NCBI GenBank assembly: GCA_958295645.1
Contig: OY282361.1
Coordinates: 1,764,501 to 1,828,500 of the forward strand
Length of the DNA: 64,000 nt
From: Longimicrobiales bacterium
GTDB lineage: Bacteria > Gemmatimonadota > Gemmatimonadetes > Longimicrobiales > Gaopeijiaceae
Reading direction: 5' to 3'
Shown: positions 23,754 to 35,864 of the stretch, one piece after another
Position numbering within the stretch: the stretch's first letter is position 1
Layout: each line of letters starts with the position of its first letter
Translations under genes and position numbers: made by a program
Notes under the pieces: model-generated
Seen by the model: the letters and a program-made list of their open reading frames with translations, nothing else
Databases searched by the model: none
Told to the model about the DNA's origin: nothing

Positions 23754-24029
23754 GGAGGGCTTTCCCATCTTCAATTTTCCCATCTTCAAGGCTCCAAGAA
23801 GCTCCCGCGTCGGATCGGCCCGCCGAAGCGGCAGTCAACCGCTCGGCGAGCGGCACGCCTATTGTAATCGAACCCTAAGCCCGCCGAAAGACGACCGCGC
23901 TGGCCCGCCTCGCGCACCTCCCGCGCATGAGGCCGGTCGCCCTAGCCGGCCATCGTATCGCCACAGACCGATTGGTTCCGCTCCAACCAGTCAAGCACGG
24001 CTTCGGCTGCCCATTGGTGGCCCTGTGGA
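23644..24029. repeat. 386-bp perfect direct repeat, left copy
   Basis: Identical base for base to 24984-25369 at an offset of 1340. It covers the N-terminal codons of copy B, the gap with the shared upstream element, and the C-terminal codons of copy C. Perfect identity between otherwise diverged copies points to recent duplication or gene conversion. Confidence 0.9.
23799..23870 (-). promoter_or_regulatory. Shared structured upstream element (before SGNH copy B)
   Basis: Read on the minus strand, it begins with CGATTACAATAGG, whose TACAAT (23861-23866) could be a -10 box, and continues with the hairpin CCGCTC-GCC-GAGCGG and a second hairpin GCCG-CTT-CGGC. An identical copy lies before copy C, a shortened one before copy D, and a version about 80% identical (58 of 72 bases) starts at 35081 on the plus strand. 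No good -35 box is seen. It may be a promoter plus leader RNA or a dispersed repeat. Confidence 0.5.
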
Positions 24030-25093: not shown

Positions 25094-25369
25094 GGAGGGC
25101 TTTCCCATCTTCAATTTTCCCATCTTCAAGGCTCCAAGAAGCTCCCGCGTCGGATCGGCCCGCCGAAGCGGCAGTCAACCGCTCGGCGAGCGGCACGCCT
25201 ATTGTAATCGAACCCTAAGCCCGCCGAAAGACGACCGCGCTGGCCCGCCTCGCGCACCTCCCGCGCATGAGGCCGGTCGCCCTAGCCGGCCATCGTATCG
25301 CCACAGACCGATTGGTTCCGCTCCAACCAGTCAAGCACGGCTTCGGCTGCCCATTGGTGGCCCTGTGGA
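24984..25369. repeat. 386-bp perfect direct repeat, right copy
   Basis: Partner of 23644-24029. Here it spans the start of copy C, the C-D gap and the end of copy D. Identity stops sharply at both ends, after which the genes differ at scattered bases. Confidence 0.9.
25139..25210 (-). promoter_or_regulatory. Shared structured upstream element (before SGNH copy C)
   Basis: Identical to 23799-23870 because it lies within the 386-bp repeat. Putative -10 TACAAT at 25201-25206, followed by the same two hairpins, 46 bp from the chosen start codon of copy C. Confidence 0.5.
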
Positions 25370-34391: not shown

Positions 34392-35075
34392 ATGTCCGAC
34401 CCGAATGCCGAACGCAAGATGAAGTGGCGCTTTCTCGCCGGCTTCGGCGTGTACTTCGCCGCCGTGCTCCTGGCGTGGGACACGCCCGTCCTGTATCCGC
34501 TCAAGATCTTCGTCGTCATGCTGCACGAGATCAGCCACGCGGCGGCGGCCGTGGCGACCGGGGGATTCGTCGACGGCATCGAACTGGATCCGCGGCAGGG
34601 CGGTCTATGCCGCTGCCCGGGCGGCAACGCCTTCGTGACGCTCTCGGCCGGCTATCTGGGCAGCTTGGCGTGGGGCCTGCTGCTTCTCTCGGCGGCAGGC
34701 GCGAAGTGGGTCCCGTCGCGTGCCGTGGTGGTGGCGGTGGGCGCACTGGTGACGGTTCTCGCGTTGCTCTACGTGGACGGCTCGTTCGGGCTCGGCTTCG
34801 GCGTGGCGTTCGGAGGGGCGCTGATGCTGGCGGGATTGAAGTTGCGACCCAGCTTCCAGAAGCCCATCCTGGTCACGCTGGGGCTGACCAGCTGCCTCTA
34901 CGCGATCCTCGACATCAAGAGCGACGTCCTGGACCGTCCCCATCTTCAGTCCGACGCCGCCATGCTGGCCGAGATGACGCCCGGCATATCCACAACGACG
35001 TGGGGAGTGATCTGGATCGCGGTCGCCGCCCTCGTCAGCGCCGTCGCCTTCCGGCGGGCCTACCGGCAGGCGTAG
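34392..35075 (+). CDS. M50-like membrane metalloprotease-type protein
   Basis: 227 residues with about six hydrophobic segments. HEISHA near residue 43 is an HExxH zinc motif inside a membrane helix, as in M50B-like proteins, followed by PGGNAFVTLSAGYLGS. The second site-2-protease signature (LDG/NPDG) is not obvious, so peptidase activity is likely but unproven. Several relatives are annotated simply as M50-family or as membrane proteins of unknown role. The frame is open upstream but is Arg-rich there, so ATG 34392 is preferred. Confidence 0.72.
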   Translation: MSDPNAERKMKWRFLAGFGVYFAAVLLAWDTPVLYPLKIFVVMLHEISHAAAAVATGGFVDGIELDPRQGGLCRCPGGNAFVTLSAGYLGSLAWGLLLLSAAGAKWVPSRAVVVAVGALVTVLALLYVDGSFGLGFGVAFGGALMLAGLKLRPSFQKPILVTLGLTSCLYAILDIKSDVLDRPHLQSDAAMLAEMTPGISTTTWGVIWIAVAALVSAVAFRRAYRQA

Positions 35076-35080
35076 GGACT

Positions 35081-35152
35081 CGATTACATTAGGCGTGGCG
35101 CTCGGCGAGCGCCTGGCCGACGCTTCGGCGGACCGGCCGACGCGGGAACTGG
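35081..35152 (+). promoter_or_regulatory. Shared structured upstream element (head of the 35.1-kb unit)
   Basis: 58 of 72 bases match, without gaps, the minus-strand sequence upstream of SGNH copies B and C. The hairpin is kept: the outer pairs G-C, G-C here correspond to G-U, C-G there, a paired base change. TACATT at 35085-35090 is a candidate -10 box; no convincing -35 is seen. Confidence 0.5.
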
Positions 35153-35193
35153 TGTCCAGCCCGATGTCCCACCCGAACCAAGGAGGTGATCAC

Positions 35194-35256
35194 TTGTCCA
35201 GTCAAAGTACCCAGCGCAACCCGGCAAGGGCATGCGATCGCCGCTTCGGCGTCTGA
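35194..35256 (+). CDS. Putative 20-residue peptide with very strong ribosome site
   Basis: TTG 35194 is preceded, 8 bases away, by AAGGAG within AAGGAGGTGATC (35180-35191), complementary to the 3' end of 16S rRNA over 12 bases. The peptide is polar and Arg-rich, ends RRFGV, and matches nothing I recognise. Its stop lies in the loop region of a strong hairpin, an arrangement that would let translation affect RNA folding. The preceding bases (GAACCAAGGAG) match the ribosome-site context of several genes in this window. Confidence 0.4.
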   Translation: MSSQSTQRNPARACDRRFGV

Positions 35257-35321
35257 CGCCGAACAACGATCGACCACTCGCGCCGTAGGCGGCCTTCGCC
35301 GCCGGGTTGCGGCTGGTTCTG

Positions 35322-35372
35322 CACCCCCGGTGGCCCTCGGACTTCGGTTCAGGGGTTGCCGGGGGTGTTTTT
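35322..35372 (+). terminator. Rho-independent terminator of the 35.1-kb unit
   Basis: Stem CACCCCCGG / CCGGGGGTG (35322-35330 with 35359-35367), extended inward through G-U and C-G pairs to a CTTCGG tetraloop (35342-35347), then five T at 35368-35372. It ends 9 bases before the greA stop codon on the other strand. Confidence 0.85.
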
Positions 35373-35381
35373 CTTGCGAAC

Positions 35382-35864
35382 TTATTCGTCCGCGTTCAGT
35401 TGTTCGGGAAGCGTCGTCAGCTCCGTCACCGCGAGACGGCGTTCGCCGCCGGGAAGCCGCACGGTCACTTCCTCTCCCTTGCGCGCGCCCATGAGTCCCT
35501 TGCCGATCGGCGACGCCATCGAGATGTGGCCGGCCTCCAGGTTCATGTAGTCGCCCGCCACGATCGTGTAGTCGACGACTCTGTTCCGGGTCATGTCGCG
35601 AACGGTGACCTTCGAGCCGAAGCCGACCCGGTCTGCCGGCATGTCGTCCACGTTGATCTTCGACAGATCGGACATGCGGCGCGCCAAGTGTCCGAGCCTG
35701 GCCTGGACGAACTGCTGCCTCTCCAGAGCGGACTTGTACTCCGCGTTCTCGCGCAGGTCCCCGAGTTCCACCGCCTTCTGTATCCGGCGCGGGAGCTCGA
35801 CGTTGAGTTCGCGCGTCAGGACGTCGACTTCGTCGCTGATCTTGGACTTGATTTCGTCGAGCAC
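35382..35864 (-). CDS. greA: Transcription elongation factor GreA
   Basis: 160 residues, normal GreA length. An N-terminal coiled coil carries the tip motif GDLRENAEYKSA with the acidic residues that reach into the RNA polymerase secondary channel and stimulate cleavage of backtracked RNA. The C-terminal FKBP-like domain contains ASPIGKGLMGARKGEEV. The start is GTG 35864; no better start is visible. It converges on the structured unit at 35.1 kb. Confidence 0.93.
   Translation of the reverse strand: MLDEIKSKISDEVDVLTRELNVELPRRIQKAVELGDLRENAEYKSALERQQFVQARLGHLARRMSDLSKINVDDMPADRVGFGSKVTVRDMTRNRVVDYTIVAGDYMNLEAGHISMASPIGKGLMGARKGEEVTVRLPGGERRLAVTELTTLPEQLNADE

Follow-up and report, generated by a model that had tools for sequence, protein, structure and literature searches.

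The 290-base gap at positions 35081–35372 of the window, by which is meant the whole 64,000-nucleotide stretch of Longimicrobiales DNA analyzed here, lies between an M50B-like gene and a convergent greA-type gene, and comparative analysis shows that it contains a genuine RNA gene, single-copy and hitherto uncatalogued, that is common to much of one Gemmatimonadota class. The explanation that we favor, though with slightly less than even confidence, is that of a stand-alone small-RNA gene of approximately 200–290 nucleotides whose fold is switched by the ribosome, such that ribosome loading is part of its function. This reading best accounts for the combination of a selected reading frame, a largely unselected peptide, a covarying helix embedded in the ORF, an extreme Shine-Dalgarno sequence and the lack of a dependent gene. 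An earlier note on this DNA had described in the gap a 12-base match to the anti-Shine-Dalgarno, a TTG start at ideal spacing, a 20-codon frame whose stop lies in a hairpin, a second hairpin and a long terminator capped by UUCG, and all of these elements are present among the features of the locus, as follows.

34392–35075, plus strand: upstream neighbor, a Peptidase_M50B-like membrane protein (Pfam PF13398)
35085–35090, plus strand: putative -10 element TACATT, the best upstream promoter-like match, with a poor -35
35097–35150, plus strand: 5′ hairpins in their own-genome version, predicted by folding, their sequence kept in close relatives only
35158–35174, plus strand: conserved upstream element AGCCCGATGTCCCACCC, from alignments, with a class consensus of approximately GCCC.ATGTYCNACC
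35180–35191, plus strand: AAGGAGGTGATC, an extended Shine-Dalgarno complementary to the 16S tail GGATCACCTCCTTT, as read from loci L037 and L090
35194–35256, plus strand: mini-ORF with a TTG start, 20 codons and a TGA stop, encoding MSSQSTQRNPARACDRRFGV; frame, start and stop are kept in relatives
35215–35225, plus strand: 5′ arm of a long-range helix, CGCAACCCGGC, within the ORF, from covariation
35228–35242, plus strand: near-invariant RNA motif GGGCA(T/A)GCGATCGCC, within codons 12–17, from alignments; kept in L079 and L186 despite another frame
35245–35263, plus strand: stop-codon hairpin UUCGGCGU-CUG-ACGCCGAA, predicted by folding and by pairing in relatives (helix 4)
35288–35303, plus strand: second hairpin GGCGGC-CUUC-GCCGCC, from the sequence
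35301–35311, plus strand: 3′ arm of the long-range helix, GCCGGGTTGCG, from covariation
35322–35372, plus strand: intrinsic terminator hairpin with a UUCG cap and T5, from folding and from terminator enrichment in members
35382–35864, minus strand: downstream convergent neighbor, a GreA/GreB transcription elongation factor (Pfam PF01272/PF03449)

The unit is retained over a broad range of relatives. Nucleotide searches recover homologues in 30 of 39 of them, mostly over 35150–35270, and a first covariance model, built from 47 sequences, detects the RNA in 167 of 297 Gemmatimonadota genomes, almost always as one copy; a genome of the same family (G238) is exceptional in carrying two copies on different contigs. 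With a second model the count is 176 of 294, made up by rank of 68/74 in the own family, at least 17/18 in the order outside this family (the 18th is a marginal, partial match) and, in the remainder of the class, about 90 of about 200. Most of the genomes are metagenome bins, and as related genomes were counted, these figures do not represent independent events. Beyond the phylum, the spread was assessed by an exact pattern, which returned at least 113 loci from 84,980 species genomes. The pattern matches listed are from Gemmatimonadota, except for one bin titled “bacterium” and three titled Gammaproteobacteria (L029, L063 and L071), which are probably mislabelled, as judged for L029 and L071 from sequence or neighbors shared with a record of the Gemmatimonadota BD2-11 clade (L072). 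Viral contigs, plasmids and phages yield no matches to the unit, and a phage or plasmid element was rejected on this ground.

Upstream of the mini-ORF, members share a segment that complements the 16S rRNA tail over 11–13 nucleotides. The 12-mer AAGGAGGTGATC occurs only once in the 2.89-Mb genome, at 35180–35191, while the reversed control pattern occurs 0 times. Its core is invariant in 130 loci, which is partly a consequence of the search design, and it is present in the model-based matches as well. An NTG start (TTG, GTG or ATG) resides 6–7 nucleotides behind GGAGG in members, the distance in the own genome being 7 nucleotides (TTG at 35194–35196). All three starts are found; the excess of TTG in the first pattern scan is partly by design, as that scan required TTG, and the model-based matches are free of this bias. 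An upstream ATG, within GATGTC, was considered as the true start and rejected, as it lacks a ribosome site and stands in different frames to the ORF in different genomes. The own 16S is unreadable in the assembly, and the complementarity is thus based on the tails of two relatives (L037 and L090) and on general knowledge of this tail. A 16S rRNA model has no match in the own single-contig genome (G000:C1); as 5 of 14 control genomes likewise yield none, the own gene may be masked or missing. In L037 and L090, this RNA shares its 7–8-kb locus with the 3′ end of the 16S rRNA gene.

Conceivably, the complement could be an end in itself, with the unit being a putative ribosome-binding RNA that captures or titrates 30S subunits, or senses the integrity or maturity of the tail, through 13 nucleotides of pairing. 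The invariance of the core, partly a product of the search design, and its uniqueness in the genome are in keeping with such a role, but a trap of this kind needs neither a conserved in-frame stop to release ribosomes nor the downstream helix described below, and we regard this proposal as quite unlikely.

The reading frame that follows is under selection. Across 130 distinct loci the stop is TAA in 44, TGA in 43 and TAG in 42, exactly 20 codons are present in 102 of the 130 ORFs, and the other two frames have no common end. TGG is never seen at the stop position, where independence of the two varying letters would predict 14 instances. Between the start and the conserved motif, the spacing varies by multiples of three with one exception, and in the lineage of L079 and L186 a one-base frame shift is accompanied by a stop after 23 codons, with the GGGCAAGCGATCGCC motif kept and read in the other frame. 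That a stop is shared in one frame, that TGG is avoided and that the shifted lineage still terminates all argue for selection on the frame, and the comparison of start, frame and stop points to a translated ORF, as in dual-function RNAs. In the own genome the TGA (35254–35256) resides in the tip of an 8-bp hairpin.

The peptide, as far as can be judged from these alignments, is largely unselected. In 70 close pairs of 20-codon ORFs, 44 single changes are synonymous and 143 nonsynonymous, corresponding to a synonymous fraction of 0.24, compared with 0.28 expected by chance, and to a dN/dS-like value of 1.26. Synonymous changes are thus no commoner than chance would provide, and purifying selection on the amino-acid sequence, as expected of a small-protein gene, is not seen in these 70 pairs. 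Codon 13 is GCA in 102/102 ORFs and the bases around it are near-fixed even at third positions, which indicates that the constraint on this stretch acts on the RNA. A divergent set of loci (L191, L195, L197, L199, L201–L207, L209 and L211) has a 14-codon version of the ORF, MSTDxxTARIAGSR, in which 12 of the changes in the ARIA codons are synonymous and 3 nonsynonymous. This small sample of non-independent pairs gives a hint of constraint, and of some role, at the level of the peptide in this subgroup.

These observations bear directly on the possibility that the unit is simply the mRNA of a functional micro-peptide of 14–20 residues, its RNA structure merely tuning translation. The conservation of the start, the frame and the three kinds of stop would be expected of such an mRNA, as would the pattern in ARIA. 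Against it stand the synonymous fraction at or below chance in the 102 20-codon ORFs, the fixation of the most conserved stretch at third positions too, and the frame-shifted L079 and L186, which retain the RNA motif and lose the peptide. A micro-peptide is accordingly unlikely in our estimation, and the small protein proposed in the earlier note finds weak backing at best across the 20-codon ORFs, surviving as a mere hint in the divergent 14-codon subgroup.

Selection at the RNA level is also apparent in the secondary structure. The minimum free energy is -150.9 kcal/mol, compared with -129.8 ± 6.0 for shuffled sequences (z = -3.5), and 0 of 200 shuffles fold as well. The first ~70 nucleotides (35081–35150) are not conserved in relatives, and most matches begin at ~35150. 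The stop hairpin is not the principal conserved helix; that place belongs to a long-range helix that joins the second half of the ORF to a segment beyond the stop, the first bases of its 3′ arm competing with the second hairpin. Double changes are observed in 11 of its 12 pairs among 78 sequences, and the whole structure contains 199 double-change cells, compared with 58.7 ± 12.2 in shuffles and 14–40 in slid controls, on an alignment that was fitted to the model and so leans towards structure. The helix is seen on an unfitted alignment also, with double changes in 8 of 21 predicted pairs, and its mean score is 24.6 for native partners and 18.3 after partners are swapped between sequences. Divergent members (e.g. 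L208, L210 and L214) display the same architecture despite quite different sequence, and maintain the helix with unrelated arms, such as CAGTTGATTGCC with GGCAATCAACG in L210. Both the stems and the frame, whose conservation in close relatives the earlier note had asked about, are kept there. In predicted ribosome-free folds the 5′ arm is mostly engaged in the helix (median pairing 0.76) and the stop codon is mostly exposed. Another helix, GCCC/GGU (helix 1 from RNAalifold), was set aside, as its pairs never change on both sides and it has no covariation support.

At the 3′ end of the unit, the terminator consists of a stem at 35322–35367, with a C(UUCG)G cap, and T5 at 35368–35372. A terminator is present in 90% of members and in 5% of control stretches. 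Several terminator hairpins of a divergent family (L199–L211) share a tip resembling CGCG-TTAGGG-CGCG, hinting that the loop of the terminator is itself conserved in these sequences.

The genes around the unit do not share its constancy. In a large group of the sampled loci it lies between an M50 gene and a convergent gene of the AhpC/redoxin type, and the genes 3′ of the unit vary overall, including redoxin, GreA, PQQ-type dehydrogenase, acyl-CoA dehydrogenase, polyketide synthase and others on either strand (the three enzymes following GreA were named by reading the sequences, without a Pfam run). As these 3′ genes differ and are often convergent, the unit is not the leader of a fixed gene and is independent of its neighbors, that is, stand-alone. 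It might nonetheless be supposed that the ORF is the leader peptide of an attenuator that governs whether transcription passes the terminator into a gene beyond it, as the earlier note had entertained. Attenuators are built from a mini-ORF, overlapping helices and an intrinsic terminator, all of which the unit has, and some genomes have a co-directional gene within ~200–350 nucleotides 3′ of the unit. The identity of that gene varies, there are no regulatory codon runs, and convergence with the next gene is seen both in the own genome and in no fewer than a quarter of the loci sampled (the redoxin-type gene by itself accounts for 31 of 117). No position 5′ of a fixed co-directional regulated gene emerged from the sampled loci, and inspection by eye brought no conserved antiterminator pairing to notice. 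This reading is already largely refuted, and we consider it very improbable.

Comparison with known systems places the unit near several of them and within none. There is no match in the window to Rfam 15 at the gathering threshold, and the best sub-threshold hits (E up to 10) fall far below the cut-off, with E values of ~1 or worse; the judgment of the earlier note that the unit fits no known RNA family is borne out, as is its recognition of a unit with a probably translated mini-ORF, which the conserved frame and helix found here support. The tmRNA is likewise a structured RNA with a short ORF that is read by the ribosome, but the present unit has a start codon, a Shine-Dalgarno and an intrinsic terminator and no tRNA-like end; it has no RF00023 match, and a canonical tmRNA exists elsewhere in the genome, so tmRNA identity was rejected. 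The 6S RNA resembles it in being a structured single-copy RNA of ~200 nucleotides per genome, but has no conserved reading frame; RF00013, a model that also misses most control genomes, does not match, and this identity was rejected as well. Leader-peptide attenuators share with it a mini-ORF that overlaps a ribosome-openable helix and is followed by an intrinsic terminator, and differ in the fixed co-directional gene and the regulatory codons discussed above. In dual-function small RNAs such as SgrS/SgrT and RNAIII/hld, the part known to be conserved is the peptide and/or the base-pairing region. In contrast, the unit keeps the frame and not the peptide, and its ORF forms one arm of the conserved helix. 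A further member of this group is Pos19 of Rhodobacter, a dual-function or coding small RNA (PMC5036791). SgrS/SgrT, RNAIII/hld and Pos19 all resemble the unit in being stand-alone RNAs of 200–300 nucleotides with a terminator, a short ORF and a good ribosome site.

A further possibility is that the unit is an antisense RNA acting in trans, with the ORF serving a second, independent function or being a by-product. Its stand-alone position, its terminator and the conserved segments GGGCAAGCGATCGCC and, within the own family, TGTTCGCGCCG would suit such a role. Selection on the frame and stop implies that the ORF is no by-product, and no target complementarity in the own genome was found for the one motif tested: the only exact complement of the conserved motif is the motif itself, and sites with one mismatch are near background. 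An antisense role thus seems to us rather improbable.

Taken with the frame and the helix, the results suggest that it is probably the act of translation, rather than the peptide, that matters, and we infer that the RNA is transcribed, translated and switched between forms. In the translation-switched reading that we favor, the 30S subunit would be recruited unusually strongly through 11–13 base pairs to the 16S tail, and the ribosome would read 14–20 codons and stop inside the structure. En route, it would melt the helix that joins the second half of the ORF to the segment past the stop, thereby freeing or hiding segments of RNA such as the GGGCAAGCGATCGCC motif and the 3′ arm. The RNA could in this way alternate between a folded and a ribosome-opened form, acting as a gauge of initiating ribosomes or being controlled by one. 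Weighing against this reading are the poor predicted promoter of the own genome, the lack of an antisense target for the conserved motif in that genome, the hint of a peptide role in the 14-codon subgroup, and the partial pairing of the Shine-Dalgarno in many predicted folds (mean unpaired probability 0.31), which makes strong recruitment uncertain. Among the three suggestions of the earlier note (an attenuator, a small protein and a ribosome-binding or translation-sensing RNA), the last is the best fit to the data, as a matter of fit only. A bolder extension, possible but doubtful, is that the unit represents a new class of free-standing RNA whose conserved output is being translated. Ribosomes brought in by a full-length complement of the 16S tail would open the helix within the ORF, and the RNA would thereby signal, or be set by, how many initiating 30S subunits are available or how intact they are, and would exert some control in trans.

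The retention of a single-copy RNA through most of a family and order and much of a class makes a core role likely, and yet the RNA is absent from every RNA library searched. To our knowledge, Gemmatimonadota have hardly been studied at the RNA level, and a literature search found no paper on such an RNA in the phylum; the unit would be the first housekeeping-type small RNA for this widespread group of soil and water bacteria. Selection on translation and selection on the peptide are separated here with unusual clarity, and the idea that an RNA gene may work through the passage of ribosomes can be put to the test in this unit.

The unit probably has its own promoter. With transcription beginning near 35096, the RNA would be ~280 nucleotides long, although the promoter-like element of the own genome is poor. 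A simple consensus scanner calls no promoter or terminator at the locus, where the terminator stem contains mismatches. Upstream of members, promoter-like elements score 6.8, compared with 5.2 in shuffled sequence, and cluster at a few distances. The block 35064–35150, which holds the putative promoter and the first 5′ hairpins, recurs at ~83% identity at 23800–23886 and 25140–25226, both on the minus strand and apparently upstream of two tandem paralogous ORFs, and looks like a duplicated promoter block.
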